Part shown: positions 22,864-56,017 of the stretch, piece after piece
Position numbering within the stretch: the stretch's first letter is position 1
Layout of the letters: every line of letters starts with the position of its first letter
Assembly (NCBI GenBank): GCA_913057775.1
Contig: CAJXOG010000003.1
Span: 248,001-312,000 of the forward strand
Direction of reading: 5' to 3'
DNA from: an uncultured Fodinibius sp.
GTDB taxonomy: Bacteria > Bacteroidota > Rhodothermia > Balneolales > Balneolaceae
Length of the DNA stretch: 64,000 nt
Position numbers and translations under genes: made by a program
Notes under the pieces: generated by a model
The model's database searches: none
The model's input: the letters and a program-made list of their open reading frames with translations, nothing else
Told to the model about the DNA's origin: nothing

Positions 22864-22901
22864 TATTAACTTTGTTTAGTATTTTATAAACAAAGTTAAT
22901 A
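22864..22901. promoter_or_regulatory. Operator palindrome, site 1 (before operon A)
   Basis: Perfect 15-bp arms (22864-22878 and 22887-22901) with an 8-base spacer. The core is TTGTTTA-N8-TAAACAA. It lies 37 bases before the start of the first gene of the translocase operon, whose last gene encodes a GbsR/MarR regulator. Five related cores occur later in the window. Confidence 0.75.
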
Positions 22902-22938: not shown

Positions 22939-25671
22939 ATGAATATCACAGAAACCGGCAACAATTTTCGTGCACTTTTTTCACTTGATCCCGAGGTAAA
23001 AACTCGGGCATTGTTGATGTTTGTGTACAACTTTGTGTTGCTCAATACGCTTTACTTGTTAAAACCGGTGCGTGACAGCTTATTCCTCGAGCAGGTCGGG
23101 GCCTATAATTTACCATTCGTCTTTATTTTAACGGCCATTGCTGTTATTCCGATTTCGATTGGTTATTCACGGCTTTCTAAGCGGCACTCTGTTGGATGGA
23201 TTGTCTCAGCCATAACACTCTTTCTGGCAGCCAATTTATTTGTCATCTGGTTTTTTATAGAGATGAATAATGTCTGGTTGTACTATGGATTTTATGTCTG
23301 GGTCAGTATTTACAGCGTATTAATAACCTCTCAGTTTTGGCTGTTTGCCAATACCATTTTTAATTCAGTGCAGTCGAAAAAGATTTTTGGCTTCTTAAGT
23401 CTTGGCGCTATAGCAGGCGGCGTTTCAGGGGGAGAACTTACAGCTATACTTGTCAACAGGCTGTCGCTGCAACCAGAATCGTTGCTCTTGATATCAGCGA
23501 TCATAATAGTAGGGACTACTCCACTGGTGTGGTTGATTCTCAAAAAGAATGACAGTTCCGGGTTATCAAAAACTGATAAAAATGAGTTTGCAAAAGCTGA
23601 TAAGTCAATTCCGGGCAATCCCTTACAAGAGATTTTATCTCACAACCATCTGCTGCTTATTGTAGCTCTTATTGCAGTGACCGTAATGGTGACAACACTT
23701 ATCGATTATCAGTTTAAGACGGTGGCTGAGGCAGCTTACACAACTGAAGCAGCGCTGACCAGTTTTATGGGAAAATTTTATGGTCGAGTTAGCTTAATAG
23801 CACTACTTATACAGCTTTTTATAGGTACCATTTTCACCAAAAAGTATGGCGTGTCCGGTTCTCTTCTGTTGTTGCCCCTTGCGTTGCTAATCAGCGCGGG
23901 CGGGATGTTGCTCATACCCGGATTAGTAGCGGGTACCATCAGTCGGGGCGTCGATCAAACGCTAAAGCATTCTATTGACCGTACCGGTCGCGAGCTGCTA
24001 TTTGTACCTCTCCCCAAAGAGCTAAAGAATCGGGTAAAGGTTTTTATTGATCTGTTTGTTGATCACGGTGCCCAGGGTCTTACGGGATTGTTACTTTTAG
24101 GGCTAACATTCGGGTTGGATCTCAATGTGCAAGAGATATCAGTAGTGGTAGTTACATTGCTTGTTGCGTGGGTAGTGATTGCAAAGATGGCCGGCAACTC
24201 GTACGTGGATGTATTCCGCAATAGGTTGAAGCAGAAAGTTAAGGGCGGCTGGAGTAAAAGCCGTAAAAAGAGAAGTCGTTTTGAAGAGGCTAATAAAGAA
24301 AGTATCCAAAAGCTATTAAAGAGCGACGAGGAAACAGATGTGCTTTGGGCCTTGGATGTGATGCGCAAACAGGAGCTAGAAGTAGATCAGGATTTACTTA
24401 TCAGAAATCTAAAACACTCCAGTTGTAAGGTACGCATCAACGCTGTGCAATTGTTGCGTGAGCGGGAGCTTGGTGAATGGGTGGATGAGGTGATGGATTT
24501 AGCCTATGACAAGGATGCCGATGTACGCATGGAAGCAATCCGATATGTATACCAATTTTATGAAGGAGATCGCCTGGAAAAACTAACTGTTGGATTACAT
24601 CACGATGATGCCCGAGTACAGGCGGTTGCCATGGCTCTTATTGCCGAAGAGGGTGATGAAGATGAGAAGAAACTTATTACCGATGAGTTATTATATGAGG
24701 CGGTACATTTTGAGGGTGAAAATGGTCATGAGCTCCGTAAGCAATCTGCTAAACTATTGGGCGAAATATATGATCGTGATCATGCTTATTTGCTAAAAGA
24801 ACTGCTTAATGATGAAAACCCATCCGTAGTAAAACAAGCCATTGAAAGCACAGGTAAAACGCAGGATCGACGTTTTGTTCATGACTTGCTACTGTTGATG
24901 GGTAACGGAATTTATCGGAAAGCAGTAGAACAAGCGCTCAGAGAGTACGGCAGCCGGATATACGGAACCATGTACGATCACATGATAGATTCACATTTGC
25001 CGGTGTCAACACGGCGATACATTCCATGGCTATTTTCTCAAACAGTGAGCGAGGATTCATGGGATATTCTTAAGATGAGTCTAAAATTCTGTTCCATTCC
25101 CATCCGACATGGTGTTGTTAAGGCATTGCTTCGGATACGCAAACATCGTCCGGAGTTTCGGGTATCGGATGAGATTATTGCCCAGAATATAGAGCGAGAG
25201 ATAGAACGATATTCAAAGATTAAGAAAGCCCTTTCTTTCTACCAAAGCGGAAAGGTTACGCTATCTGAGGAGGCAGATAAAATACTGGAATATGAGATTG
25301 AACAGACGTTCGAAAATGTTTTCAGGTTACTGAGTTTGAATAATGAAATCGAGGATATTGATAATGCATACAAAGCAATTGTGGGTGACAATCTGGGACT
25401 GAGGTCTGATGCAATCGAATTTATTGAGAACCTCACAATGTGGGATGTGCGCAAGTTGGTGATCCCTATTTTGGAAAACTATCATGCTGATAGCTGGCCG
25501 AAAAATAGTTTTAGCAAGGCACTTACCGATACCGAAGATGTACTCATTTTCCTAAAAGAAATCTGTCACGCAGAACTCGAGGAAAAGCTAACCCCCAACC
25601 TTGAGGATAAGAAAGCGTCAGACCAAAAGTCCAAGGTAGTAAAGAAATCAAATATTGAGGTCGAGGAATAG
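22939..25671 (+). CDS. Npt-type nucleotide translocase with C-terminal HEAT repeats (copy A)
   Basis: A 910-residue inner-membrane protein. Residues about 15-425 form around twelve membrane segments and match the ATP/ADP (NTP/NDP) translocase family of organelles and intracellular bacteria (LYLLKPVRDSLFLEQVGAYNLPFVFILTA, later RTGRELLFVPLPKELKNRVKVFIDLFVDHGAQG). Residues about 455-760 are helical HEAT-like repeats with pattern VRxxAxxxL (for instance SSCKVRINAVQLLRERELGE). The tail is charged. Family members exchange nucleotides across the inner membrane; direction and substrate here are unknown. It heads an operon with an outer-membrane barrel, a kinase-like lipoprotein and a phosphoesterase, so export of nucleotide to the periplasm is an attractive inference. 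Confidence 0.88.
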   Translation: MNITETGNNFRALFSLDPEVKTRALLMFVYNFVLLNTLYLLKPVRDSLFLEQVGAYNLPFVFILTAIAVIPISIGYSRLSKRHSVGWIVSAITLFLAANLFVIWFFIEMNNVWLYYGFYVWVSIYSVLITSQFWLFANTIFNSVQSKKIFGFLSLGAIAGGVSGGELTAILVNRLSLQPESLLLISAIIIVGTTPLVWLILKKNDSSGLSKTDKNEFAKADKSIPGNPLQEILSHNHLLLIVALIAVTVMVTTLIDYQFKTVAEAAYTTEAALTSFMGKFYGRVSLIALLIQLFIGTIFTKKYGVSGSLLLLPLALLISAGGMLLIPGLVAGTISRGVDQTLKHSIDRTGRELLFVPLPKELKNRVKVFIDLFVDHGAQGLTGLLLLGLTFGLDLNVQEISVVVVTLLVAWVVIAKMAGNSYVDVFRNRLKQKVKGGWSKSRKKRSRFEEANKESIQKLLKSDEETDVLWALDVMRKQELEVDQDLLIRNLKHSSCKVRINAVQLLRERELGEWVDEVMDLAYDKDADVRMEAIRYVYQFYEGDRLEKLTVGLHHDDARVQAVAMALIAEEGDEDEKKLITDELLYEAVHFEGENGHELRKQSAKLLGEIYDRDHAYLLKELLNDENPSVVKQAIESTGKTQDRRFVHDLLLLMGNGIYRKAVEQALREYGSRIYGTMYDHMIDSHLPVSTRRYIPWLFSQTVSEDSWDILKMSLKFCSIPIRHGVVKALLRIRKHRPEFRVSDEIIAQNIEREIERYSKIKKALSFYQSGKVTLSEEADKILEYEIEQTFENVFRLLSLNNEIEDIDNAYKAIVGDNLGLRSDAIEFIENLTMWDVRKLVIPILENYHADSWPKNSFSKALTDTEDVLIFLKEICHAELEEKLTPNLEDKKASDQKSKVVKKSNIEVEE

Positions 25672-25672
25672 C

Positions 25673-26950
25673 ATGCGACTACAGAATAGAATAATTAGCT
25701 TAGTGGCCATCAAGGCATGGGTTTTATCACTAATGCTTGTCATCGGGATGATGTATCCCGGTACTGTATTTGCGCAATCCGGCGATTCCTTGAAAGCTGA
25801 TAGTGAAGATCCCAATATGGTGCCTTATAAAACAGAGCGTAGCGTAGGCCACCATATTTTAGCGGCTCCATCGTATCTGCTGCACTGGGTTAGTCGGCCG
25901 TTAGGCTACGGGGTAAAATATGCCGAAGAGAATTTTCCTCATTGGTTTCAAGGAGAACGAGGTCCCTACGGATTTTTGCCGCTGGTAGAGATCGGGGGCG
26001 AAGAAGGGTTTGCTGCCGGCGCGCTTCTGTATCATGATCATCTATTTTTTAAAGATCACAGAGCGAGGGCAGAAATTTTATTTGGTTCACAAGTATATAA
26101 CGAGTTTGAAATACAATACCAGGTACCTATTAAAGGCATTGAAAATAGCAGCCTGACTTTTGAGGGAGAGTATGAAAATGCTCCCGAGCGTTCATATTAT
26201 GCAGATAACCGCAATGAAGATTTAAGTTATGCCAGTGAATTCGGAAGCATAGAATTGACCTATAAACAGCAGGTAAATAGCTGGTTACAAACCCAAATTA
26301 AGGCGGGTTATCGGGATCGGACTATCAAAACGAGCAGGTATGAAGATGATCTTGATGAGCGGATTCCCTTGTCGCTGCTTGGAAATAGCAAGCTGTTTTC
26401 TGTGGGCAACCGCTGGATATTCAACTATAAAAATGGACGCAAGCGAACGTTGAATGGAACACAGTATGTTGTGGGCGGTAATTGGACGCAATCTGCGGAA
26501 ACGCACTCCCTCAGCTTTATCGAATATTACGGAGAGATCCACCACTTTGTACCTGTATCTATCTTGCCAGAGACACGGCGGCTGGGATTAAAAATGCAGC
26601 TGCACAAGCAAGAGAATTTGGCTTCTCGCAGAATACCGTTCTACGAGCTTAATTCATTGGGGGGTACCCACAATTTACGGGGCTTTCCAAGCAATCGGTT
26701 TCGGGCGCAGGGTAAGCTTCAGCTAACGGCCGAATACCGCTACCCGATCTGGGATTTTCTGGATATGGTGATTTTTGTGGATGAAGGTCAGCCGTTTAAT
26801 AAATACAGTGATCTTTCGTTCGGAGATTTTAGATCCTCTTATGGCTTTGGGTTTCATTTGCTTTCGGATAACGGTCTTGCTTTTCGATCAGAATTTGCTT
26901 TCAGCAATGAAGGCGGACGATTCATCATCAGTATAACGCCTAATTTCTAA
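25673..26950 (+). CDS. Omp85-type outer-membrane barrel without POTRA (copy A)
   Basis: A signal peptide (hydrophobic run ending near VFAQ) leads to a barrel of about 425 residues. The Omp85 barrel signature is present: LGGTHNLRGFPSNRFRAQG holds the RGF motif, then EYRYPIWDF, VIFVDEGQPF and a final phenylalanine in IISITPNF. No POTRA domain is present, so it is a compact BamA/TamA-like barrel. I chose ATG 25673, two bases after the preceding stop and with GAGGA upstream, over an ATG at 25655 that overlaps the translocase gene. A homologue lies at 34625. Confidence 0.85.
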   Translation: MRLQNRIISLVAIKAWVLSLMLVIGMMYPGTVFAQSGDSLKADSEDPNMVPYKTERSVGHHILAAPSYLLHWVSRPLGYGVKYAEENFPHWFQGERGPYGFLPLVEIGGEEGFAAGALLYHDHLFFKDHRARAEILFGSQVYNEFEIQYQVPIKGIENSSLTFEGEYENAPERSYYADNRNEDLSYASEFGSIELTYKQQVNSWLQTQIKAGYRDRTIKTSRYEDDLDERIPLSLLGNSKLFSVGNRWIFNYKNGRKRTLNGTQYVVGGNWTQSAETHSLSFIEYYGEIHHFVPVSILPETRRLGLKMQLHKQENLASRRIPFYELNSLGGTHNLRGFPSNRFRAQGKLQLTAEYRYPIWDFLDMVIFVDEGQPFNKYSDLSFGDFRSSYGFGFHLLSDNGLAFRSEFAFSNEGGRFIISITPNF

Positions 26951-28656
26951 TGATTTCTTTTTTGAATATTTATCGATCTCATATTGTAATTATAATCACG
27001 CTGTTAGCTATGAGTATTCTCCAGGGATGTTCATCCACGAAGCCATATGCCGAAGATGCTATAAAAACATTTGATCCTGACACCACACGAATTGATCGTC
27101 CCGAAGAGCAGCCACAATACCAATACTGGGATCGTATTGATAACACTATTTTCCATCAGCTCGAAAAGCCGTTGGATTTGAATCGTACGGTACGATTTGT
27201 TGGACGTAAGCTGGGCGTTAGTGATAAACGTCAGGCCGATAATGTGAATAAGCTGGATGAAGTTCCTGAATCGAGCTGGTACACCCGGCGTCACTATTTT
27301 AATGAAATGAGTCCCAAAGAATTGGCTTCCGGACCCAATACCGTTGCGCCTGATACGGCGGGGTCATGGACGATATTCAAAGCCAAGTTAGAGGGCGCTA
27401 ACTCAGGATTTTTTATTGAGGACGAAAACGAAAATCGCTACCTCATAAAATTTGACGGCTACGACTATCCAGAATTAACGACCGCTGCAGAAGTGATTGG
27501 AACCAAGGTTTTCTACGCAGCAGGCTATACTGTTCCAGAATCGGTAATCACCTATTTTGATCCCAATAAAGTAAGTATCAAGGAAGGTGTTACTGTTGAG
27601 GAAGACGGAGAAAAACGACCCATGACAATGGAGGATTATCGCGCCATTGTTGCAAAACGTCCCGTTAATGAGGAGGGCAAAATTCGGGCGTTAGCCAGCA
27701 AATTTGTAGCCGGAATTCCGGTGGGGCCATGGAATTTTGAGGGCACGGTAAAAGGCGATCCCAACGACCGGGTGGCGCATGAGCACCGGCGGGAGCTGCG
27801 CGGCATGCGGGTAATCAGTTCGTGGCTTAATGATACCGATCGGCGCGATGCCAATACCATGGCGGTATACAACGATAGCGGCTATATTGATCATTACGTG
27901 CAGGATTTTGGCAATACGCTTGGTGCTAACGGCACATCTATTCATCAACCCATACAGGGACAGGCCTATTTGATTGATCCCCGGTATATGATGGTTTCAG
28001 CCTTTTCTTTGGGAGGATATATCACTCCCTGGGAAACGATTGAAGTCGATGTTCCATATCCGGCGGCGGGTTATTTCAGAGCTGATGTTTTTAAGCCCGG
28101 TCGCTGGGTGCCGACGCATCCGCTGCCACCGTTTGAGAATATGACGTTGCGCGATTCTTTCTGGGGGACTAAGCACGTGATGAGTTTCTCCAATGAAGAT
28201 ATCCGAGCCATTGTAGCAACAGGAAAATATTCTAATCCCAAAGCCGAAGAATATATTGCGGAAACACTGATTGCCCGCCGCGATAAAATCGGGCACTACT
28301 GGTTTGCAAAGATTAATCCGCTGGATCGGTTTGAGGCAGAAATAGTGATTAATACTCTCAGACTTTCTTTTGATGACTTGGCCGTGAGTGGCAATTTAGT
28401 AGATGCTTCTGGTCATCAGTATCAGGGGCAGATTAAGGTGGGGCAAAAAATATTGGTTGATAAACTGAAGGCGAATAAGCCGGAGTTTACGATAGAATTG
28501 AATGAAGCTATCCCAAACAGAGATCAAAAAATGGTACTCAACTTTGTTATTCAAGCAAAGGGAGAATTCCTTGCCGGAAATGGTAAAACAGTGACAGTGT
28601 ATATTGAGATCCAAAATGATGAAAGCAGGGTAGTGGGCATTCAGCGTGAAGAGTAA
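26950..28656 (+). CDS. Predicted outer-membrane lipoprotein with kinase-like motifs (copy A)
   Basis: A 568-residue protein with a lipoprotein signal (SILQGC, lipid Cys27), overlapping the barrel stop by one base. It has no family I can name, but motifs follow a protein-kinase/HipA-like order: Lys167 in NRYLIKFDGYDYP, Glu181 in LTTAAEVIGTKVF, a hinge-like RALASKFVAGIPVGP, Asp297 and Asn302 in WLNDTDRRDANTMAV (D-x4-N, as in catalytic loops), and Asp319 in VQDFGNTLG. The spacing from N to DFG (17) is near that of HipA and lipid kinases. A homologue at 35938 keeps all of these. I infer an extracytoplasmic kinase-fold protein; activity and substrate are unknown, and the C-terminal 100 residues look like a beta-rich tail. 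Confidence 0.75.
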   Translation: MISFLNIYRSHIVIIITLLAMSILQGCSSTKPYAEDAIKTFDPDTTRIDRPEEQPQYQYWDRIDNTIFHQLEKPLDLNRTVRFVGRKLGVSDKRQADNVNKLDEVPESSWYTRRHYFNEMSPKELASGPNTVAPDTAGSWTIFKAKLEGANSGFFIEDENENRYLIKFDGYDYPELTTAAEVIGTKVFYAAGYTVPESVITYFDPNKVSIKEGVTVEEDGEKRPMTMEDYRAIVAKRPVNEEGKIRALASKFVAGIPVGPWNFEGTVKGDPNDRVAHEHRRELRGMRVISSWLNDTDRRDANTMAVYNDSGYIDHYVQDFGNTLGANGTSIHQPIQGQAYLIDPRYMMVSAFSLGGYITPWETIEVDVPYPAAGYFRADVFKPGRWVPTHPLPPFENMTLRDSFWGTKHVMSFSNEDIRAIVATGKYSNPKAEEYIAETLIARRDKIGHYWFAKINPLDRFEAEIVINTLRLSFDDLAVSGNLVDASGHQYQGQIKVGQKILVDKLKANKPEFTIELNEAIPNRDQKMVLNFVIQAKGEFLAGNGKTVTVYIEIQNDESRVVGIQREE

Positions 28657-28677
28657 ACGAATTAAAAAATTATATCG

Positions 28678-29829
28678 ATGAAGAAGTATATCATAATTTT
28701 AGTGGTTTTAACTATTGTTGCAGGATGTGTGTCTACTAAACCACCTTCTGCCGATAGTGTTCCGGTTGTGGAAAATAGTGCGCAGCCCGATGAGAGTGAT
28801 CGATTGTATTCGGTGTTTTTGGTTGGTGATGCGGGTGATGCTTCACTGAATCCGCTGGAGCCGAGCTTGTCGGTATTGCGTGAGAAATTGCAACAGACAG
28901 GAGAAAATAGTGCGGTCGTTTTTTTAGGAGATAATGTATATCCGCATGGGCTGCCTCGAGAAGATCACCGCAAGCGACAGCGAGCAGAAAAACGCTTGCA
29001 GGCACAATTTAAATCAGTAGAAAATTATGAGGGCGAAGTCATATTTTTGTCGGGTAATCACGATTGGAATTCCAGCCGTAAAAAAGGATTACAAGCGGTG
29101 AATCGACAAGAACGTTTTGTAGAGGAATCGCTAAATCGTGGTAATGTTTTTCTGCCGGATGGAGGGTTGCCCGGACCGTCCGTGTTAGAAGCGGGAAATG
29201 ATGAATTTAAGCTGTCGATTATTGCATTGAACACACAGTGGTGGTTGTATCCCCATAAAAAGCCGGGGGCTGAAACGGAAGCCGAATATGAATCAACGAA
29301 AGAGCAGGTGATCCGGGATCTAAAGAAAGCTGTTGCTGATACTACGGTTGATCAAGTGTTGGTGGTGGGGCACCATCCAATGTATTCGAATGGAACAAAC
29401 GGGGGTAAATTTCCCTTGAAAACACACTTGTTGCCACCGGTTGGAGGATCGCTATATGTGTTGTATCGTAATATTTTTGGTACGGCACAGGATATTTCCT
29501 CACGAAAGTACGGTAAATTTAAGGAGCAGTTGACGACTGTTTTTGCCGAGCGTAATCCATTGATTTACGCTTCGGGCCACGATCACAGCCTGCAGTACAT
29601 CACTTTTGATGATGAGCGACGCAACCAACATTATATCATCAGCGGATCAGGGACGGTTACGAGTTATGTCAAAAATCCCGAGTTACCCAACTTTGGTATC
29701 CAGCAGAAAGGATTTTCAGCACTGCATTATTATAAGAAGGGCATTTGGATTGAATTTTGGAATGAGCAAGGCAAAAGACTTTTTGAACAAGAAATTACCT
29801 CGATTCATAAAAAAGAATGGGCAAAATAA
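28678..29829 (+). CDS. Metallophosphoesterase lipoprotein (copy A)
   Basis: A 383-residue calcineurin-like phosphoesterase with a lipoprotein signal (TIVAGC, Cys17). The two-metal motifs are all present in order: GDAGD, VFLGDNVYP, LSGNHDWNSS, VVGHHPMYSN and SGHDHSLQY. It hydrolyses phosphate esters outside the cytoplasm; the substrate is unknown. Its relatives in Bacteroidota are often found with, or fused to, Omp85-like barrels, and here a barrel gene lies two genes upstream. It starts 21 bases after the kinase-like lipoprotein and may oppose it. Confidence 0.9.
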   Translation: MKKYIIILVVLTIVAGCVSTKPPSADSVPVVENSAQPDESDRLYSVFLVGDAGDASLNPLEPSLSVLREKLQQTGENSAVVFLGDNVYPHGLPREDHRKRQRAEKRLQAQFKSVENYEGEVIFLSGNHDWNSSRKKGLQAVNRQERFVEESLNRGNVFLPDGGLPGPSVLEAGNDEFKLSIIALNTQWWLYPHKKPGAETEAEYESTKEQVIRDLKKAVADTTVDQVLVVGHHPMYSNGTNGGKFPLKTHLLPPVGGSLYVLYRNIFGTAQDISSRKYGKFKEQLTTVFAERNPLIYASGHDHSLQYITFDDERRNQHYIISGSGTVTSYVKNPELPNFGIQQKGFSALHYYKKGIWIEFWNEQGKRLFEQEITSIHKKEWAK

Positions 29830-29844: not shown

Positions 29845-30336
29845 ATGGAAGCTACAGATGAAAAGGTCTATGAGAAAAAGAAGGCTTTTGTAGAAGAAGT
29901 GAGCCTCATTTTTGAGCAGCAGGGTCATTCTCGAATCAGTGGGCAAATTTTGGGCTGGCTGCATGTTTGCAAGCCACCGGAGCAGTCGTTTAGTGACTTA
30001 GTTGAGCATTTGAATGTGAGCAAAGCCTCAATCAGCAATATGACCCGATTGCTTATGCAGGCGGGATTTATTGAAAAAGTGCGTATGCCCGGTGAACGCC
30101 AAACCTATTTTAAACTTGTTGACCATGCCTGGTGCAAGGTGATGGAAAGGCATCTCGAGAACATGAAGAAGCTGCGCGATATCTCGGCAAAATACCTTGC
30201 CGAATTGAATGCCGAAAGAGAGACAGAAATCGATCGGCTGAATGAAATGCATGATTTCTACGATTTTGTTACTGAGAATTTTCCGGAATCAATTGAAGCA
30301 TATAAAAAGAGCTGTCGGAGCAACGGGCAGCAGTGA
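29845..30336 (+). CDS. GbsR/MarR family regulator (copy A)
   Basis: A 163-residue winged-helix protein of the GbsR type. The DNA-binding part is GRISGQILGWLHVCKPPEQSF-like followed by LNVSKASISNMTRLLMQAGFIEKVRMPGERQTYF; the second half is a helical dimerisation region. It is the last gene of the translocase operon, 15 bases after the phosphoesterase, and closely resembles the protein at 33624. Its likely target is the palindrome before the operon (22864-22901), giving autoregulation. The effector is unknown. Confidence 0.9.
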   Translation: MEATDEKVYEKKKAFVEEVSLIFEQQGHSRISGQILGWLHVCKPPEQSFSDLVEHLNVSKASISNMTRLLMQAGFIEKVRMPGERQTYFKLVDHAWCKVMERHLENMKKLRDISAKYLAELNAERETEIDRLNEMHDFYDFVTENFPESIEAYKKSCRSNGQQ

Positions 30337-33491: not shown

Positions 33492-33550
33492 TACTTACTT
33501 ATTTAGTTTAATGGCAGGATGAACTTCTTTATACGTTAAAATATTTATTA

Positions 33551-33570
33551 TGTTCAGTATAAACTAAATA
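33551..33570. promoter_or_regulatory. Operator-like palindrome, site 5
   Basis: TGTTCA-GTATAAAC-TAAATA matches the shared core TGTTTA-N8-TAAACA at 10 of 12 positions. It lies between the small barrel gene (leftward) and the second GbsR gene (rightward, 54 bases away), as expected for autoregulation. Confidence 0.5.
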
Positions 33571-33623
33571 TTTTTTATATTTTTAATCTTACAGAATCCA
33601 ATTAGCCTAAATACCTATATTTT

Positions 33624-34103
33624 ATGTCTGCAGACGATACGTATAAACAGAAAAAGCAATTTGTTGAGGAAGTAAGCTTGCTTATTGAGGAAAGCGGGAA
33701 ACCTCGGATATCAGGTCAAATAATGGGGTGGCTTATGGTATGTGACCCACCTGAGCAATCATTTTCTGATTTAGTAGAGCACCTCGAAGTCAGCAAGGGA
33801 TCCGTCAGCAATATGACTCGTATGCTAGTACAATCGGGACTCATTGAAAAAGTGCGGCTACCAGGCGAACGACAAATACACTTCAGGATCAAAGAAGGTG
33901 CATGGGTAGATGTGCTGGAAAAGGAACTTGAGTCTATCAATTCCTTGAAAAACATTTCGGACAAGGGGCTAAAGATTTTGAAAAAGGAGCCAGGTACTGA
34001 TAAATCTCGTCTTAAGGAGATGAATAAGTTTTACAAATTTGCAGAAAAAAATCTGCCACGCCTCATCGAAGAATATAAAGAAGAACATTTTGATCAGGTT
34101 TGA
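33624..34103 (+). CDS. GbsR/MarR family regulator (copy B)
   Basis: A 159-residue paralogue of the regulator at 29845. Shared stretches include RISGQI(L/M)GWL, PPEQSFSDLVEHL, VSK(A/G) and GLIEKVRLPGERQ, so the DNA-contacting helix is nearly the same (SKGSVSNMTRMLVQSG here). It precedes the second barrel/kinase-like/transporter set and probably controls it. The similar recognition helices suggest that both regulators could read the same palindromes. Confidence 0.9.
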   Translation: MSADDTYKQKKQFVEEVSLLIEESGKPRISGQIMGWLMVCDPPEQSFSDLVEHLEVSKGSVSNMTRMLVQSGLIEKVRLPGERQIHFRIKEGAWVDVLEKELESINSLKNISDKGLKILKKEPGTDKSRLKEMNKFYKFAEKNLPRLIEEYKEEHFDQV

Positions 34104-34517: not shown

Positions 34518-34583
34518 AGAGAATATATATTTATCAGAGATTGCTAAAAGTAACACCCATACGTTATTAAAATATATAAAATT

Positions 34584-34614
34584 TGTTTATTATGCACTAA
34601 ACATTATAAACAAA
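34584..34614. promoter_or_regulatory. Operator palindrome, site 2 (before arm B)
   Basis: TGTTTA-TTATGCAC-TAAACA (34584-34603) is a full match to the shared core. The left arm can also pair as TTTGTTTAT (34582-34590) with ATAAACAAA (34606-34614), so two overlapping palindromes are present. It ends about ten bases before the probable start codon of the barrel gene. Confidence 0.7.
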
Positions 34615-34624
34615 GTAGAACATC

Positions 34625-35914
34625 TTGTCTGTACCTTCAACCTGTAGCTCGATTCTTGTCATTTGCCTCGGAATGTGGCTATTCTTTCCTCCTGATGTAA
34701 ATGGCACTACAGTAAAGGAACAGAAAAATCCAGCCGTTGCAGATACTACGACCTCAGATAAGAATAATCCCAACAGCATTCCTTATGCTTCGAGCCGTAC
34801 GTTTGGTGAACATCTATTGGCACTGCCTTCGTACCTGCTACACTGGACTACCAGGCCCATAGGATATGGCGTCAAATTCCTGGAGCGAGAATTCCCAGAA
34901 CTCTTTGAACTGAAAGTGCCTAATTCCGGCATTGCACCCTATTTTGAAACCGGAAGTAAAAATGCGAAAATAGCATACGGTATAATTGCTTATCATAAAA
35001 ACTTTTTAAGCCCGGGTAATGAACTGCGATTTCATGGTCTCTTTGGATCTGAGAGCTATAATTCGTTTGAGCTGGACTATGCAATATCAACGTTTTTGGC
35101 TGGAGAGTTAGAAATCGATGCTTCCTACGCCAATAATCCGGAACAATCGCTGTACGGCGGCAACAATTCAACTCTGGAAGAGAAGCAATTATTTTCAGCT
35201 GAAGAGCTTGAGGGATCGCTGGCCTACAAGCAGCAGGTCAGCCCTATCCTGGGGCTACGCCTTAACAGCTCGTTCAAGAAGCTTACTATCGGCCAGGGAG
35301 ATGTTGACGACAGTCCCGGCGGGCCTATTGCAGACCGCATGCTGGGTACCACTTCTTTGGTTACCATTGGCGGTTCTGCCAGCTATGACTTTACAAAGGG
35401 GAAACCCCGTACCTATTTGGGACCTCGCATAGCTGCGGGCCTCGACTGGAGCCAGTCAATTAATAGTACAGACTTCCGTTTTTTGACTTATACAATTGAA
35501 TGGGATCACTTTTTGCCCGTTTTTTTCCTGCCCAAAACACGGCGACTTGCTTTTAAAAGCCGATTGCAAAAAGTAGAACCATTGAAAAATAGTGGAGTTC
35601 CATTTTTTGAATATCCAACTCTGGGAAGCAATCAGGATCTGCGCGGGTTTACGGGCAATCGATTTCGGGATGACGGTTCGCTTCTGCTAACGCTCGAATA
35701 CCGGTATCCCATCTGGGATTTTGCAGACCTCGTTTTATTTGTTGATGAAGGACAAGTATTCGACTCCTATTCTGATATTCATATTAGCGATTTCCACACC
35801 GATTACGGCTTTGGGTTCCATATTATTTCCGGGGGTGGATTTTCCTTCAGAACCGAGTTTGCCTTCAGTAATGAAACCTCGCGTTTTATTTTATCGGTAA
35901 CTCCAAATATTTAG
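34625..35914 (+). CDS. Omp85-type outer-membrane barrel without POTRA (copy B)
   Basis: A 429-residue paralogue of the barrel at 25673: LPSYLLHWTTRPIGYGVK, then LGSNQDLRGFTGNRFRDDG, EYRYPIWDFADLVLFVDEGQ and the C-terminal FILSVTPNI. The barrel carries the RGF motif and no POTRA domain. The start is uncertain: the frame opens after a stop at 34616, and the only early start is TTG 34625, which gives a short signal sequence (SSILVICLGMWLFF); the next ATG is at residue 17. The gene therefore begins almost against the operator. It is followed 23 bases later by the kinase-like lipoprotein gene. Confidence 0.82.
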   Translation: MSVPSTCSSILVICLGMWLFFPPDVNGTTVKEQKNPAVADTTTSDKNNPNSIPYASSRTFGEHLLALPSYLLHWTTRPIGYGVKFLEREFPELFELKVPNSGIAPYFETGSKNAKIAYGIIAYHKNFLSPGNELRFHGLFGSESYNSFELDYAISTFLAGELEIDASYANNPEQSLYGGNNSTLEEKQLFSAEELEGSLAYKQQVSPILGLRLNSSFKKLTIGQGDVDDSPGGPIADRMLGTTSLVTIGGSASYDFTKGKPRTYLGPRIAAGLDWSQSINSTDFRFLTYTIEWDHFLPVFFLPKTRRLAFKSRLQKVEPLKNSGVPFFEYPTLGSNQDLRGFTGNRFRDDGSLLLTLEYRYPIWDFADLVLFVDEGQVFDSYSDIHISDFHTDYGFGFHIISGGGFSFRTEFAFSNETSRFILSVTPNI

Positions 35915-35937
35915 GTTATTTAATTTTAGAACTACGG

Positions 35938-37635
35938 ATGCATCACACTAACAAACTATTACAAACAATCGGTATCGGCGCGGTCGTGCTTTTATTATTG
36001 GGATGCGCAGGCAGCCGCCCCTATACATTAGGACCGGTCAAGACCTTTGATCCCGATACCTCCGCCATACCCGAACCCGATGAAAAAGAGCAGTACCAGT
36101 ACTGGGACCGCATTGACAATACTACCTTCCATCAGCTTGAAAAACCCCTAGACCTTAATCGAACATTCCGATTTGCCGGTCGCATGTTGGGAGTCGCAGG
36201 TGACCGCCAGGCCGACAACGTGAATCACCTGGATCAAGTGCCGGAATCCAGCTGGTACAGCTACCGGCATTATCATAATCCCATGACGCCGAAAGAGCTG
36301 GCAAGGGGGCCAAACACCGTGCAACCGGATACGGCAAGGGAGTGGACCATTTTTCGGGGAAAGCTGGAGGGAGCAAACTCAGGCTTTTTTATTGAAGACG
36401 CCAACGGCAACCGCTTTCTGATAAAATTTGATGGTTATAAGTACCCGGAACTGACTACGGCTGCGGAAGTTATCAGCACAAAAATATTTTATGGAGCAGG
36501 CTACTACGTCCCGGAGTCCACGATAACTTATTTTGATCCCGAAAATGTAAGGATTGGAGAGGGCGTTAAAGTCAGTGTTGATGGAGAAACGCGGCCGATG
36601 ACCCGGCAGGATTATTTAGACATTATAAAAAAGCGGCCTCGTAACAAGGATGGTAAAATCCGGGCCCTTGCAAGCAAATTCGTGGACGGGCGTCCGGTAG
36701 GGCCCTGGGGCTTCGAGGGAACACGGAATGACGACCCCAATGATCGGGTACTGCATGAGCACCGGCGGGAACTGAGAGGCATGCGTGTTATCAGTTCCTG
36801 GTTAAATGATACCGACCGCAGAGATGCCAACACGATGTCGGTTTATACCTCGGAGAGCTATATCAAACACCTCGTTCAGGATTTTGGCAACACGCTGGGT
36901 GCCAACGGCACAAGTATCCACACCCCTATTTATGGCCAGGCATATCTTATTGATCCTCGATACATGGCCCTTTCGGCGGTGGCTTTGGGCGGTTACGTGC
37001 GCCCCTGGGAGCAAGTTGAGCCGGAGGTTCGCTATCCGGCCGTGGGCTATTTTAAAGCTGAACCGTTCCAGCCAGGCCACTGGGTGCCTGTCCATCCGCT
37101 GCCGGCATTCGAAAATATGACGCTGCGCGATGCATTCTGGGGAGCAAAAATTGTAATGAGTTTCAGTAACGAGGATATCCGGGCTATGGTGGAAACCGGA
37201 CAAATATCTAATCCGGAAGCGGAAGAATATTTAGTGCAAACCCTGATAGACAGACGTGATAAAATTGGTCGCTATTGGTTTCGACGCATAAATCCTGTTG
37301 CCAAATTCCATGCACGTATTGACAACCAAAAACTGGTTCTCCAATTTGATGATTTGGGAGTTACGGGCAACGTTTTTTCATCGTCGAGCTCCCATTATAG
37401 GTATAACGTATTACATGCAGACAAGGTATTACAAAAGGGGGAGAGGGTAAACGATTCGGCAATCGAAATTCCGCTACAGATGGGTCCTGAAAAGAATAGG
37501 AAAGCTCCGTTGGTTGTACAGATTCAGATTACAACGCACAGGCCGGGATCGGATATCATCGCCAAAGAAACGCGTGTATTTGTTGCGCTTGAAGACGAAG
37601 GACCGCGAATCGTAGGTGTTGAAAGAGAAGAATAA
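35938..37635 (+). CDS. Predicted outer-membrane lipoprotein with kinase-like motifs (copy B)
   Basis: A 565-residue close paralogue of the protein at 26950, with lipoprotein signal LLLLGC (Cys23). All kinase-like positions are kept: Lys163 in NRFLIKFDGYKYP, Glu177 in LTTAAEVISTKIF, Asp293 and Asn298 in WLNDTDRRDANTM, Asp315 in VQDFGNTLG, and the hinge-like RALASKFVDGRPVGP. Divergence is concentrated in the C-terminal 100 residues. Conservation of exactly these positions between paralogues supports a functional nucleotide-binding site. The gene lies between a barrel gene and a nucleotide transporter gene, as in copy A. Confidence 0.75.
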   Translation: MHHTNKLLQTIGIGAVVLLLLGCAGSRPYTLGPVKTFDPDTSAIPEPDEKEQYQYWDRIDNTTFHQLEKPLDLNRTFRFAGRMLGVAGDRQADNVNHLDQVPESSWYSYRHYHNPMTPKELARGPNTVQPDTAREWTIFRGKLEGANSGFFIEDANGNRFLIKFDGYKYPELTTAAEVISTKIFYGAGYYVPESTITYFDPENVRIGEGVKVSVDGETRPMTRQDYLDIIKKRPRNKDGKIRALASKFVDGRPVGPWGFEGTRNDDPNDRVLHEHRRELRGMRVISSWLNDTDRRDANTMSVYTSESYIKHLVQDFGNTLGANGTSIHTPIYGQAYLIDPRYMALSAVALGGYVRPWEQVEPEVRYPAVGYFKAEPFQPGHWVPVHPLPAFENMTLRDAFWGAKIVMSFSNEDIRAMVETGQISNPEAEEYLVQTLIDRRDKIGRYWFRRINPVAKFHARIDNQKLVLQFDDLGVTGNVFSSSSSHYRYNVLHADKVLQKGERVNDSAIEIPLQMGPEKNRKAPLVVQIQITTHRPGSDIIAKETRVFVALEDEGPRIVGVEREE

Positions 37636-37652
37636 TTCATAATCTATTCCCG

Positions 37653-39153
37653 ATGCAAACTCCTGGCTTTTTACGGCGGCTACAACAGCAGTTTTTCGAT
37701 ATCCGAAAGAACGAATGGCCGCGGGCCCTGGCCCTATCCCTTTTCTTCTTTTTGGTTATTGCGATATTCTGGGTGCTCAAGCCCATCAAGAAGGGAGCGC
37801 TGATAGGTTATTATAAGCAGGACGCCCTGCAGCTGCTGGGGCTTAGTTTTGGAGGGGCCGAGGTGGAGCAGCTGGCCAAGGTGGTAAACATGATTGTGGT
37901 TTTTGGGGTCGTAGTGCTTTTTACGCTCCTCATACGTCGTTTTAAACGTCAGCAGGTGGTATACATATTTTGTGGGCTGATAAGCGTTGGACTTATCTAC
38001 TTTGGCTTTGCACTCACGAGTCCGGAGGCCATCGATGCGTGGACGTTCTACGTATTCGGCGATATTTTTAACTCAGTTATGGTCGCCACCTTTTGGGCTT
38101 TTGCCAACGATGTGAACAATCCGCAGGAATCGAAGCGGTTATATGGAATCATTGGCTTGGGCGGTGTTGTGGGGGGGCTTTTTTGGATCTACCTTTGTCA
38201 GCGCCCTGGTGGATGTAGACGGCGCCCGGACGCTTCTTTCCCGTTCATTTGGCAGCCTCAACATCGCTGAAAAGCTACAGCGCGGTTTTATGGAAGTGGT
38301 CTTTCCCATTTACGAATACGTTATCCAATTTAGCAGGTGGTTTAACAGGCAGTTAGGATATACCGGCTATGCCGATCAAATGCTGGGACGACAAAGCTTG
38401 CTGCTTGTTTGCATAATTGCGATGCTTATTATTGCACTGTTAACCTATTATGTAAATGCTCGATCTCCCGTAGTTGAGGAGGATAAAACTGACACAGAAG
38501 AGAAAAAGTCGGTGAATGCTGCCCTCGAAGGTGCAAAAATGGTGTTCAGTTCGCGTTATCTGTTGGCTATTCTAAGCATTATTGGGTTTTACGAGATTAT
38601 TTCCAATATAATTGAGTTCCAGCTCTCGGCGGCGGTAGAAATCTCAGCTATGCAGGGGACCGAAATTGATGCTTTTTTTGGCACCTATGGCCTGTTAATT
38701 GGCGTTGTGTCCATATCCGTACAGCTTTTTGCCACTCCCTATGTGATGAATAAAAAGAGCATAGCTATGGCTTTAATGGTGTTGCCGGTTGTTGATTTCG
38801 TCCTTTCCATCGGATTTCTGGCCGTGCCGGTGTTATGGGTTGCGGCAGCACTATCCATAAGTGATAATTCGCTGTACTATTCTATTACGCAATCAGCCAA
38901 AGAGTCGCTCTATACCCCTACCTCCCGCGATGTCAAATACAAGGCTAAGGCGTTTATCGATATGTTCGGGCAGCGTTCAGCCAAAGTTTTAGCAGTGGTG
39001 TTGAATCTTGTTGTAGCCGCATTTGTGGGCATCGAAAATGTACGCTGGCTATCGATTGTCACACTTCTTATTATTGCGGGATATTTTGTTGTGGTGCGTT
39101 ATGCCGGTGAAGAGTTCAAAAAACGTAGTACTGACACGAAAGATAGTTCTTGA
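37653..39153 (+). pseudogene. Npt-type nucleotide translocase without HEAT domain, frameshifted
   Basis: Two overlapping frames together make one translocase-like membrane protein of about 500 residues. The first (from ATG 37653) gives FWVLKPIKKGALIGYY and LYGIIGLGGVVGG, then derails at a run of seven G (38171-38177). The second frame continues with FFGSTFVSALVDVDGARTLL and later YTPTSRDVKYKAKAFIDMFG to the stop at 39151-39153. Removing one G restores the reading (GGVVGGFFGSTFVS). The run could be a slippage (phase-variable) site, a null mutation or a sequencing error. Unlike the copies at 22939 and 43249 it has no HEAT repeats. Confidence 0.8.
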
Positions 39154-40538: not shown

Positions 40539-40895
40539 TTATTCCTGCACCCAGCGTTTAGCTGTTTCTTTTTCGTCGAAGGGGAAGGCTTTGACATCTA
40601 CCTTGGTGAGTACATCACCCAGGGTTGAGCCTTTCTGCAGCCATTTTTTATCGGTTATAAGGGCCTCTTTCTCGAAGCGGTCGAAGTTGCCGATCGCAAA
40701 TTTGAGATCTTTGAAAAAGGCTTCGGCCGAAAATCCTTCAAAAGAGGTTAATTCGATGTACAGGCTCACTTTCTCATGATCTTGCATCTTTTTTTCCATC
40801 AGGGCCGTAAGGGCGTCAAATTCCTGTCCGGTAATTTTGCCATCTACATTAATTCCTACTACGTGGTCTGCGTCTACGTCGATAAAAGTTAACAT
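40539..40895 (-). CDS. SpoIIAA-like (STAS/SEC14 fold) protein 3
   Basis: A 118-residue SpoIIAA-like protein (MLTFIDVDADHVVGINVDGKITGQEFDAL, ending ETAKRWVQE). The family shares the fold of STAS and SEC14 domains but lacks the phosphorylated serine motif, and its function is mostly unknown. It is the last of three tandem paralogues. Confidence 0.87.
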   Translation of the reverse strand: MLTFIDVDADHVVGINVDGKITGQEFDALTALMEKKMQDHEKVSLYIELTSFEGFSAEAFFKDLKFAIGNFDRFEKEALITDKKWLQKGSTLGDVLTKVDVKAFPFDEKETAKRWVQE

Positions 40896-40922
40896 AAGTT
40901 AGGTGTATTTTGAGGTTGTTGG

Positions 40923-41282
40923 TTATTCCTGAATCCACTTTTTCGCTTCCTCCTGCTCATCAAAGGAAAACACCTTTACGTTCATATCGGGACCAATTTT
41001 ATTGCCGAAGCCGGCCCACTTTTTTACCCATTTCTTTTCGGTGACCACCGCCTGCTTTGCAAAGCGATTCCAGTTTTTGATGCCGAATTTAAGATCTTCA
41101 ATCAGTCCTTTCAGGGAGATGCCCTTAAAGGAAACCAGTTCGATATAAATGCGAATATCACCGTAATCTTCCACTATTTGATTCATCCGCTTAGTCACCG
41201 CATCAAACTCTTGGGTGTCGATGGTTCCATCCAGTCGAATTCCAATAACGTTGGTGGCGTTTAAGTCAATAAATGTCAACAT
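40923..41282 (-). CDS. SpoIIAA-like (STAS/SEC14 fold) protein 2
   Basis: A 119-residue paralogue of its two neighbours (MLTFIDLNATNVIGIRLDGTIDTQEFDAV, ending EEAKKWIQE). Gaps of 27 and 24 bases indicate a single transcript with genes 1 and 3. Confidence 0.87.
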   Translation of the reverse strand: MLTFIDLNATNVIGIRLDGTIDTQEFDAVTKRMNQIVEDYGDIRIYIELVSFKGISLKGLIEDLKFGIKNWNRFAKQAVVTEKKWVKKWAGFGNKIGPDMNVKVFSFDEQEEAKKWIQE

Positions 41283-41306
41283 TAGAAAATATCTTATTTC
41301 GTATTG

Positions 41307-41663
41307 TTACTTAATCCACTCCATAGCATCGCTTTTATGATGGAGTGAAAACGTTTTTAAGCTCAAACCGTTTTTAGATCGTTCGTTAAATGCATTCCAG
41401 TTCTTCAAACACCAGAAGTCTGAAATCAGGGCCAAACGTTCGAGCCGGTGCCCGCTTTTAAGACCGACTTTCAGTTCATCGATGAGGGAAGAAAGCGTAA
41501 CCCCCATGAGAGAAACAATCTCGATATACAGTTGAGGCATAGCATGATTCTGCAGCCTTCGTTCAATTATAGTAGTTACCGCTTTAAACTCCTGCATTGA
41601 AATTTTGCCGTCAATTCTGATGCCTATTATATTGTCTGTATCAGTATTAATAAATGCGAGCAT
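41307..41663 (-). CDS. SpoIIAA-like (STAS/SEC14 fold) protein 1
   Basis: A 118-residue first member of the triplet (MLAFINTDTDNIIGIRIDGKISMQEFKAV, ending KSDAMEWIK). It is the most diverged and starts 24 bases downstream of a shared-core palindrome (41687-41706), so the triplet is probably controlled with the envelope system. Confidence 0.85.
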   Translation of the reverse strand: MLAFINTDTDNIIGIRIDGKISMQEFKAVTTIIERRLQNHAMPQLYIEIVSLMGVTLSSLIDELKVGLKSGHRLERLALISDFWCLKNWNAFNERSKNGLSLKTFSLHHKSDAMEWIK

Positions 41664-41686
41664 AATAGCAGGTTGTTTTTTCAGTA

Positions 41687-41706
41687 TGTTTAATATAAGC
41701 TAAACA
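41687..41706. promoter_or_regulatory. Operator palindrome, site 3 (before SpoIIAA-like triplet)
   Basis: TGTTTA-ATATAAGC-TAAACA matches the shared core completely. It sits between the phosphoesterase stop and the first SpoIIAA-like start, both on the minus strand. Confidence 0.65.
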
Positions 41707-41779
41707 AAATAAAAATATCAGTGCCAGTTGTTTTTATTCTTTTTCTTCTGATAGTTGAACAAGAAGTAATTTCATGCAT

Positions 41780-43248: not shown

Positions 43249-45933
43249 TTAGTCTATCATTTGTATGTGACGATTTAGTTGCGGGTGGGAAAGACTCCGC
43301 AGGTATTCTTTAGCTTCGTTGAGCGTGTAAATCGAAGATTCCAGGTTATGGCTGTGTAAATCCTCGGTTTGTATAAACTCTAAAAGCGGAAGCAGCTCCT
43401 GTTTTAATTCCCAGCTAATGATATTTTCAACAAACTCAATTGAATCTGCTCGCAAGGCTTTGTTTTCACTATCTATACCTTTGTACGCATTGTAAATATC
43501 CTCTGAATTATACAACAGTCCCAATAACCTAAATATATTCTCCAGGGCTTGTTCAATTTCTTCTGAGAGCAGCTTATAGAAGCTAATTGCGTCACTGCTT
43601 ATACTGTGATGATTTAACAATTTTAGGCTCTTTGAAAGATTTACATACCGATCTTTTTCAGTCAGGATCGATTGTTGTAAAGAACTCTTATCTACTGATA
43701 TATCACTGTTGTTATTCTGTATCTTATTCAGAGCCCTTATAACAGCATGTCTTACGCTTATTTTACATCGGTCCATACTGATCTGAAGGACATCGAAAGC
43801 CACCTGTGAACCATTAATGGTTAAGATTGGTGGAATCGAAAGTTGTACTGATTCTGGTAACTGATCATCAGTGAGATAGTCAAAAAGAGTGCCTAAAATT
43901 CTCTCACCATATAATGACAAGGCTTGTTGTGCATGATTCTTAAATGTTTCATCTTCCAAAAAAGTAAGCAGTTTGGGAACAAAGATTCGATCACCGGATT
44001 GTCCGGCACTGATGATCGCCTTTTTTACCACGGGAGGGGTACTCTCGTGCAGTAGTGTTTCCAAAAGAGGTTTCCTCGTCTCGTTATATACTTTCCCCAA
44101 CACACGAGCCGTCTCGTATTTCAATTCTTTTTGTGATTCACCCTGGTACAAAACGGCCTGTTCAAGTATTTCGGTTGTTAATATGGAACGTTCATGCTCC
44201 CCGCCGTCTTTCGCGATAAGACCCAAAGCTGCAGCTCTTATTTTGGCATCTTGGTGATAGAGGCCCTCCTCAAGAATTTCTAACTTGCTGGCTTCATATT
44301 TCTGAGGGTCGTAAAAGTGATACACATAGCGGGCGGCCTCCAGACGGACTTTTGGATCCGGATCTTCGAGCAGTTCTGCCACCTCTTCTATGTAGCCATC
44401 GATCTTTTGACTTCTAAACACCTTCAAGCATTGAATTCTGATGGAATCATTGGGATGTTCGAGCAGTTGCAGCAATGTTTCTTCGGGAACTTGTTTTATT
44501 TCATTGTTAGCCTCGATCTCTTTTAGAGAAGTTAGGATCTTTGAGATATCCTCACTTTGCAAATAGTTAAACAAATACTGCAGGCTAAAGTCGGAATCAC
44601 TTTTTTGATTTTTAGGTGTAGAAGCGCCTACTTTTTCTTCAAGAGAGTTGCGAAATTCATTGATGTATGATTGCTTGATCCAGAGGGCAAGTATAAGCCA
44701 AATAATAATCAAGCCTGCAACAACAATGGCAAGCTGTTGAACGGTAAACGAAAAAACGAGCGTTAACAAAAGTAGCATCAAGCCTGCCATCCCCTGTGCT
44801 CCGTGATCTACAAAAAGGTCAATAAACACTTTGGTCCGCTTTTTAAGGTTGAGATCTACTGGTAAAAAAAGGAGTTCTCGTCCGGTACGGTCTACAGAAT
44901 GCTTCAAGCTTTGTTCAGCTCCTCTCAACATGGTGGCGGCAACGAGTCCAGGCCAAACAAGCAACCCAACCGACCCCAACAGTAGGAGGCTTGGTAGAAT
45001 GGCTACTGCTCCTCCAACGCCCTGCCACTTGATGAACTTTGGGGCCAAAAAAGATTGTATCAGAAGGGCAATAATACTTACTCGGCCATAAAACTGTCCC
45101 ATAAATGCGGTAAGACTACTATTGGTCGTATAGGTTTGGGAGGCAATCGTTTTAAATTGGTAATCGATGATGGTAGTGGCAATTACCGAAAGGGCAATAA
45201 TCCCCATAATGAGTAGTAGGTGTTTGGAACGCAATACCTGTTGAAATAGCGAGAATGACAGGGCCGATTTTTTTGTGACTTTCTCTTCATGAACCATGGC
45301 CTCAGTGTTATCTGAGCTGTTGGCTTGTAGACGAACAATTTGAACAATGCCCATTGTTGACAAAAGAATGGCAGCTCCTATTAGCAGAAGGTTTTGAGGG
45401 ACCACACCAAGTACATTTACCAAAAAACCAGTAATTTCTCCACCGGTGATCGATCCCAGAATGGCCCCTGCACTAAGTAACGTAAAAATTCTTTTTGCTT
45501 GGGTTGAAGTAAATATGGCATTGGCAACGAGCCAGAATTGCGAGGTTATTAGCACACTATATATGCTTACCCAAATATAAAGCACATAGTACACAATGCT
45601 TGAATCGAACTGAAGCAGCCACCACATAATTATCAGGTTTACAACCAAGAACAAGGTGATAGAATGTACCAGCCATCCCAAAATCATTTTTTTAGATAAT
45701 TTGGAATAGGCCAGAGAAATGGGAATAACGGCACCGGCGGTAAGGATAAACACCCAGGGTAACTGCTGGAACCCCATTTCTGTTAAGAAAAGACTGTCTC
45801 GAACTGGTTTCAATAGATAAAGGATATTCAACAGCAAAAAATTATATAGAAACATCAGTCCGGCAGTTTTAGCCTCATCCGGTTTTATATTGAGGATTGC
45901 TGATATTTTTTTTCTAATCTGTATGTTAGTCAT
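43249..45933 (-). CDS. Npt-type nucleotide translocase with HEAT repeats (copy C)
   Basis: An 894-residue paralogue of the protein at 22939. The membrane half has LYLLKPVRDSLFLTEMGFQQLPWVFILT and RTGRELLFLPVDLNLKKRTKVFIDLFVDHGAQG; the second half has HEAT-like repeats (for instance EDPDPKVRLEAARYVYHFYD). Around twelve membrane segments are expected in the first 430 residues. By family it exchanges nucleotides over the inner membrane. It is 200 bases upstream of the phosphoesterase gene on the same strand, with the REP-like repeat between. Confidence 0.88.
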   Translation of the reverse strand: MTNIQIRKKISAILNIKPDEAKTAGLMFLYNFLLLNILYLLKPVRDSLFLTEMGFQQLPWVFILTAGAVIPISLAYSKLSKKMILGWLVHSITLFLVVNLIIMWWLLQFDSSIVYYVLYIWVSIYSVLITSQFWLVANAIFTSTQAKRIFTLLSAGAILGSITGGEITGFLVNVLGVVPQNLLLIGAAILLSTMGIVQIVRLQANSSDNTEAMVHEEKVTKKSALSFSLFQQVLRSKHLLLIMGIIALSVIATTIIDYQFKTIASQTYTTNSSLTAFMGQFYGRVSIIALLIQSFLAPKFIKWQGVGGAVAILPSLLLLGSVGLLVWPGLVAATMLRGAEQSLKHSVDRTGRELLFLPVDLNLKKRTKVFIDLFVDHGAQGMAGLMLLLLTLVFSFTVQQLAIVVAGLIIIWLILALWIKQSYINEFRNSLEEKVGASTPKNQKSDSDFSLQYLFNYLQSEDISKILTSLKEIEANNEIKQVPEETLLQLLEHPNDSIRIQCLKVFRSQKIDGYIEEVAELLEDPDPKVRLEAARYVYHFYDPQKYEASKLEILEEGLYHQDAKIRAAALGLIAKDGGEHERSILTTEILEQAVLYQGESQKELKYETARVLGKVYNETRKPLLETLLHESTPPVVKKAIISAGQSGDRIFVPKLLTFLEDETFKNHAQQALSLYGERILGTLFDYLTDDQLPESVQLSIPPILTINGSQVAFDVLQISMDRCKISVRHAVIRALNKIQNNNSDISVDKSSLQQSILTEKDRYVNLSKSLKLLNHHSISSDAISFYKLLSEEIEQALENIFRLLGLLYNSEDIYNAYKGIDSENKALRADSIEFVENIISWELKQELLPLLEFIQTEDLHSHNLESSIYTLNEAKEYLRSLSHPQLNRHIQMID

Positions 45934-46002
45934 CCTAAAAACGGGTAGCTGGAAAATTATTAGCTGCTGTTACGTTACATTAAAAATACTTCATCATATA
46001 AT

Positions 46003-46069: not shown

Positions 46070-46118
46070 AGGGATATGTCAGTAGGTACTGACTGTTCGG
46101 GGTACAAAATACAATGAA

Positions 46119-46155
46119 ATTCATTATGTTCATTATATAATAAACAAAATGAATT
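46119..46155. promoter_or_regulatory. Operator palindrome, site 4
   Basis: TGTTCA-TTATATAA-TAAACA (46127-46146) matches the shared core at 11 of 12 positions, and the flanks extend the symmetry to ATTCATT (46119-46125) and AATGAAT (46149-46155). It lies upstream of the translocase start at 45933, with two hairpins in between. Confidence 0.6.
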
Positions 46156-52564: not shown

Positions 52565-52582
52565 TATAAGTCAGGTGTGTAT

Positions 52583-53641: not shown

Positions 53642-53643
53642 TT

Positions 53644-55188: not shown

Positions 55189-55208
55189 ACTATTAATATT
55201 GTTATGTT

Positions 55209-55865: not shown

Positions 55866-56017
55866 TTATGACCTTTGGTTATTTATTACCTGCTTTTCTA
55901 AAGCGATTTAACATGCCTTTAAACAACAAAGGCTCACTTTCGAGACAATCCATTCCAGCTTTATATAACCTGTATGGTTATTTTACTGACTTGAATTCAT
56001 AGAGCTGTAATTTAATA

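Follow-up and report, generated by a model that had tools for sequence, protein, structure and literature searches.

Our data show that six intergenic sites in a 64,000-nt stretch of DNA (the window) from a Balneolaceae genome, a relative of Fodinibius/Aliifodinibius with 3,113,415 bases (3.11 Mb), share a long palindromic element, and that a motif built from other genomes places these sites at ranks 1 to 6. Very probably, they belong to a local circuit that joins a drug-efflux pump, a nucleotide-translocase-like (NTT) envelope operon and the regulators themselves, and that is conserved in related bacteria. The original prediction of a shared operator and a local regulon is thus supported. As an explanation of the whole, we hold with good confidence that the sites act as operators of two regulators, GbsR1 and GbsR2, in a merged, autoregulated circuit of local repression.

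A long palindromic element at six intergenic sites

The operator had been described as TGTTTA-N8-TAAACA, with six core positions. A pattern scan of the window confirms that all six sites exist, each with an 8-base spacer and each outside genes (table 1). Five of the core coordinates were right, and the first core has to be moved by one base, from 22872-22891 to 22873-22892. That the sites share an operator is also borne out, but the real element is longer, i.e. a four-box palindrome of about 38 bp with the half-site consensus wATTnAnTwtGTTTAnTA. Across the 19 sites of the GbsR1/2 class, the half-site reads n-t-a-T-T-n-A-n-T-t-t-G-T-T-T-A-n-T-a-n and holds 21.9 bits, with most of the information in the inner-box GTTTA and the outer-box TT and A. 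Each half contains two TTnA boxes (outer wATTnA, inner GTTTA) as direct repeats 9 bp apart, with the inner box pair separated by 8 bp. At the level of sequence, such direct repeats suggest either two bound dimers or one dimer with extended contacts. In operator 1, perfect 15-bp arms flank 8 bases, and operator 5 is a 38-bp palindrome of 91%.

Table 1. Operators and neighbouring genes in the window, with the core position and the E-value in the 40-column profile search for each operator.
Feature	Position	Strand	Remarks
Operator 1	22864..22901		core 22873-22892, exact; E 1.2e-5
NTT_A, TLC ATP/ADP-carrier-like protein with HEAT repeats	22939..25671	+	Pfam TLC, HEAT_2
OMP_A (Omp85-like barrel), LPP_A (lipoprotein), MPE_A (calcineurin-like phosphoesterase)	25655..29829	+	Pfam
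GbsR1, GbsR/MarR-type regulator	29845..30336	+	Pfam MarR; last gene of NTT_A operon
Operator 2	33542..33579		core 33551-33570, 2 mismatches; E 0.046; 26.6 bits with relatives-only matrix
GbsR2, GbsR/MarR-type regulator	33624..34103	+	Pfam MarR
Operator 3	34575..34612		core 34584-34603, exact; E 1.1e-4
Arm B operon, OMP_B-LPP_B-NTT_B	34625..39153	+	Pfam; reading frames
Three SpoIIAA-like genes	40539..41663	-	Pfam PF11964
Operator 4	41678..41715		core 41687-41706, exact; E 1.8e-4
NTT_C, translocase C	43249..45933	-	Pfam TLC, HEAT
Operator 5	46118..46155		core 46127-46146, 1 mismatch; E 5.6e-5
Efflux operon: TetR (55209-55865), TolC-like, MFP, RND permease (49214-52564)	49214..55865	-	Pfam/NCBIfam
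Operator 6	56009..56046		core 56018-56037, 1 mismatch; E 3.9e-4
Patatin-Omp85 gene	56154..58370	+	Pfam Patatin, Omp85_2; divergent from TetR operon

Counted by itself, the bare core is at chance level, so that the short pattern says little, whereas the clustering of the sites and the longer element say much. With up to two mismatches, the bare 20-mer has 8 matches in the window versus 5.3 expected from shuffles, which is not significant; with up to one mismatch, it occurs at 15 places in the genome versus 20 for a reversed control, i.e. without enrichment. However, 5 of these 15 places lie in the window, as do three of the four exact cores in the genome, which fall within 19 kb. A chance cluster of AT-rich palindromes would be in keeping with both chance-level counts, but is already contradicted by the ranking with an independent motif and also by the conservation described below, which makes it almost vanishingly improbable.

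Over the whole genome, a 40-column sequence profile built from 13 sites (both strands) has its six best matches at the window sites (E 1.2e-5 to 0.046, against 0.3 for the locus that follows), a ranking that is partly circular since the six sites are themselves among the 13. With the window sites left out, a matrix from eight sites, all in other genomes, still puts them at ranks 1 to 6 (43.5, 38.7, 36.7, 33.9, 26.6 and 24.2 bits) with the next match at 10.1 bits, and the top score in 20 simulated windows was 21.0. In a comparison of intergenic with coding matches, as had been proposed, seven of the ten places outside the window with up to one mismatch to the core sit in open frames of 260-990 bases, and none of the ten reaches the top six when scored for the extended element. 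Weak profile matches in four genomes (G005, G008, G016, G052), like additional matches in G003 and G032, were rejected; they lie in or near unrelated genes and have E-values near chance. One training site (L050:6694), which overlaps the start of an ORF and has a low score of 12.8 bits, is probably not a real site either.

At 22864-22901, 46118-46155, 56009-56046 and their counterparts, each site has outer arms that mirror one another even at bases in which the sites disagree (permutation p about 5e-5 for a set of 13 sites, some of them related, and 0.04 for the six in the window). This symmetry goes beyond what sequence recognition would need and perhaps reflects palindrome-correcting mutation. 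It is also what would be expected if the palindromes were hairpin or cruciform elements, or small repeats spread by copying, rather than protein-binding sites. Such elements, however, would hardly show box sequences conserved besides the symmetry, a position at operon starts that is conserved over genera, a presence that follows the regulator gene and only six copies in the genome, and we regard this explanation as extremely unlikely.

Co-occurrence of the element with GbsR genes

The two regulator proteins, which are 55-57% identical, both score above the Pfam MarR cut-off with a winged helix-turn-helix near the N-terminus, and both carry the recognition helix SNMTR. The predicted structure of GbsR2 (pLDDT 93.9) has the helix and strand order of this domain. 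The family profile matches 4NB5 (E 2.5e-31) and Mj223 (1KU9; E 2.3e-13), the template structure for GbsR, and in a Foldseek search with the GbsR2 model 1KU9 (E 6e-7, TM 0.63) is outranked only by 4NB5 and 5JBR; the overall fold of Mj223, including its C-terminal dimerisation helices, is present. With the NCBIfam equivalog for CudC, a choline regulator of the GbsR type, GbsR1 reaches 20.7 bits against a cut-off of 218, which shows that it is related but does not place it in CudC.

In other genomes the element is found at corresponding places. It precedes the GbsR1-carrying NTT_A operon in G002 and G003, where the arms of operator 1 are nearly identical and GbsR1 occupies the same position in the operon with 80% identity. 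In eight other genomes (G009, G024, G029, G032, G035 and L138-L140) a counterpart of operator 6 stands just before tetR of a TetR-TolC-MFP-RND operon that has GbsR2 adjacent to it. The gbsR2 promoter itself carries the element in the window, in G009 and in a Gracilimonas metagenome-assembled genome (MAG). In a Balneola sp., in Gracilimonas mengyeensis, in the Gracilimonas MAG and in a MAG labelled Spirochaetaceae, the element lies behind GbsR2 and before the next gene. On the contig of the latter (L142:1-1011), the end of an RND-like permease lies upstream of GbsR2 and the operator; the contig's placement perhaps reflects a binning error or a transfer.

Since tetR immediately follows operator 6 and its counterparts, the TetR protein of the RND operon might be the actual binder, with the GbsR genes as bystanders. 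Homologues of tetR and their TolC genes are present in nearly all members of the genus; at all ten tetR loci without an adjacent GbsR2 (L100-L109), however, the element is absent, whereas it does occur before the NTT_A operon, before gbsR2 and before distant gbsR genes with no neighbouring tetR. The NTT operons of seven genomes in which GbsR1/2 is absent or located elsewhere (G001, G005, G006, G008, G011, G013, G021) do not have the element either. Its absence from TetR and NTT operons without GbsR1/2 nearby points to GbsR rather than TetR as the binder and leaves binding by TetR very unlikely. Thus, an independently derived motif finds the sites, and these are present together with the regulator and missing where it is missing; for those genomes whose training sites were picked near GbsR genes, this co-occurrence is partly circular. 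Together with the autoregulatory position of the sites, this co-occurrence and the absence of sites where the regulator is absent strongly support binding of the sites by the GbsR-like proteins, which are well ahead of any other candidate as far as sequence comparison can tell.

The association even extends to more distant GbsR genes. The profile contained no sequence of this class, and its only matches in G012, G022 and G041 are 36-59 bp upstream of a GbsR gene whose product is 32-35% identical to GbsR2. Each of the twelve distant GbsR genes examined (28-36% identity) is preceded by GTTCA-N8-TGAAC, in ten cases within 32-59 bp, and a second match is present within the same 2-3.5 kb at none of the 12 loci. 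The element of this sister class is a plainer repeat, GTTCATTTAGTTCA-N8-TGAAC-N4-TGAAC. Its fourth inner-box base is C in all distant-class sites versus T in 33 of the 38 half-sites of the GbsR1/2 class, and this change from TTTA to TTCA accompanies a change of the recognition helix from SNMTR in GbsR1/2 to mostly SGTxK/R, with G012 as an exception that combines an SNSTR helix with GTTCA boxes. At most of the loci read, the distant GbsR heads an operon for a LolA-like protein, two ABC permeases and an ATPase (names taken from translations); in the Balneolales loci L060, L061 and L063-L067, this order is conserved, with FtsX-like permeases and GTTCA-N8-TGAAC upstream of gbsR.

Target operons and the proposed circuit

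The six sites differ in how firmly they can be connected to the genes assigned to them in the original prediction: sites 1, 2 and 6 have conserved target associations, sites 3 and 4 are assigned by position alone. NTT_A, OMP_A, LPP_A, MPE_A and GbsR1 form one operon, the gene order of which is kept in G002 and G003, and operator 1 ends 37 bp before the NTT_A start codon. With the site at the same place in both relatives, its assignment to this translocase operon is well supported. The counterparts before GbsR2 in G009 and the Gracilimonas MAG support that of operator 2 to gbsR2, the start codon of which follows after 44 bp; operator 2 is among the weakest of the six sites.

Operator 6 lies between the TetR-TolC-MFP-RND operon and the divergent patatin gene and had been linked to the patatin/TetR pair, and thereby to a surface phospholipase. 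Conservation gives no support to the patatin gene as a target, since it adjoins the site only in this genome and other genes do so in G009 and G024. Rather, the site is conserved foremost as an operator of the efflux operon, a target that had gone unnamed; gene order in this operon and the adjacent GbsR2 are both kept in relatives. Beyond the patatin gene, the stretch 58544-63927 consists of small, mostly minus-strand genes with a phage-like look, and the product of 59683-60216 resembles an M15-type peptidase.

The sites at arm B and the SpoIIAA-like triplet are confined to this genome. Operator 3 stands directly before arm B, with 21 bp from its core to the start codon, but has no counterpart in other genomes, although in G005 the orthologous arm-B operon comes without GbsR1/2 as well as without a site. 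Operator 4 lies 14 bp before the first SpoIIAA-like gene (core to start codon, 23 bp), but the SpoIIAA-like genes of other GbsR-bearing genomes have no site nearby. Arm B also contains an apparent frameshift in NTT_B (38120-38200), with overlapping frames at 37653-38270 and 38143-39153 that split at a run of seven G, a C and six T, where the homologues in G005 and G013 appear to have one frame; this would appear to be a sequencing error, a pseudogene or a frameshift.

Control of translocase C by operator 5 is doubtful. This operator lies between the end of a TolB/OMP-like gene and NTT_C, 193 bp from the latter, and the intervening DNA contains hairpins (46003-46110), one of them terminator-like, as well as a separate sigma-70-like promoter sequence (46020-45993). 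Repression of NTT_C from such a position is hard to picture. The minus-strand stretch 45994-46112 (119 nt) has three hairpins and folds strongly (z -7), and its last, terminator-like hairpin overlaps a promoter-like sequence TTGACA-16-TATGAT; in a consensus promoter scan, matches were no commoner than in shuffles. We rejected the idea that this stretch encodes a small RNA under GbsR control: in G009, the homologous stretch (77%) comes right after the RND stop codon and no operator separates the two, so that the end region of the RND operon is the better reading. Short matches to it in nearly all genomes (E about 0.1) were discounted as chance, and an Rfam search of the window gave no match.

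It is possible, though less likely than a wider one, that the working regulon is confined to a conserved core of gbsR2, the TetR-RND operon and the NTT_A-GbsR1 operon, with sites 3, 4 and 5 being bound but controlling little. Such a confinement would fit with the restriction of counterparts in other genomes to sites 1, 2 and 6 and with the hairpins that cut off site 5 from NTT_C. However, sites 3 and 4 agree with the motif and are less than 25 bp away from start codons, and only few genomes hold both the regulator and the arm-B or SpoIIAA-like genes, which makes non-conservation weak evidence.

What we consider most likely is a local circuit in which the regulators repress efflux and envelope operons as well as their own genes. 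From the observations above we infer binding, repression, cross-binding and ligand release along the following lines. GbsR2 would repress its own gene and the TetR-TolC-MFP-RND operon, and GbsR1 would repress the NTT_A operon by feedback. As their recognition helices are nearly the same, both paralogues probably bind all six sites. Two ancestral modules would thus have merged in this genome, with arm B and the SpoIIAA-like triplet drawn in as further operons, and release of the repressor would depend on a ligand. Operators 3 and 4 are almost adjacent to start codons, so that a protein bound there would lie over the promoter or the start of the transcript, which fits with steric repression; taken together with the known repressors of the GbsR type, this favours repression with ligand release, but the GbsR proteins may activate instead. 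Choline or glycine betaine, for which the GbsR subfamily has an aromatic cage as inducer site, is an unlikely ligand, since there are no osmoprotectant genes near the six sites in the window.

Relation to known regulators and translocases

Local repressors of the TetR and MarR families such as AcrR, MtrR, MarR and MepR are encoded beside the efflux operons that they control. The circuit proposed here is similar in that the regulator gene adjoins an efflux operon, but differs in that a GbsR-type protein is added to the operon's own TetR and that the same operator occurs at an NTT-HEAT/Omp85 operon.

GbsR, OpuAR and OpcR of Bacillus are dimeric, winged-helix repressors of the MarR type that control transporter operons (PMC6207618, PMC7396694). 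Common features are the Mj223 (1KU9) fold and an operator located at the promoter or downstream of the transcription start. In contrast, GbsR of B. subtilis has as its operator an AT-rich inverted repeat in which 4 bp separate the half-sites, whereas the element described here has an 8-bp inner spacer and an outer box pair, and the Bacillus targets are osmoprotectant genes, none of which were seen at our sites. GbsR-type proteins studied so far are repressors, with CydE and CioR repressing their own operon (PMC7396694, PMC6096048, PMC11837568), which parallels the autorepression predicted here. The CydE footprints TATTTCAGAAATTTCTGAAAGTTCA and GGGATGCGCATATGCAAAT, however, are unlike our element, and CydE and CioR target cytochrome bd. 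For a third class of GbsR (L018, L038, L039, L040, L044, L045; about 30% identical, recognition helix SKGPISQI), some loci have a different palindrome near the gene; it is of the type GTTTGAAATATTTCAAAC and recalls the footprint of CydE. In G000, no cytochrome bd genes were seen beside third-class GbsR.

Thus, GbsR-type regulators are known, but the operator and the targets found here are without description in the GbsR-type literature cited, and none of the papers in the collection searched joins GbsR with Bacteroidetes regulons or with RND. In a survey of the GbsR family, the gene neighbourhoods of Bacteroidetes members gave no consistent regulated process (PMC6207618). An operator that is found across genera, with a clade-specific base change that tracks the recognition helix, offers a testable answer, i.e. 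efflux and envelope-export operons. More tentatively, the GbsR proteins of Balneolales could represent a separate subfamily of envelope and efflux repressors with a four-box operator for two cooperating dimers, in which a GTTTA clade would control RND and NTT-HEAT operons and a GTTCA clade an export operon with LolA-like protein and ABC permeases, in response to an envelope signal unrelated to osmoprotectants.

Finally, the part of the NTT-HEAT study considered here leaves open the roles of these translocase-like proteins of free-living bacteria and describes no regulator or operator for them; the fusion architecture given there matches NTT_A and NTT_C (PMC5381601). The circuit proposed here provides a regulatory handle on such proteins, as an inducer of the RND pump should also induce them.
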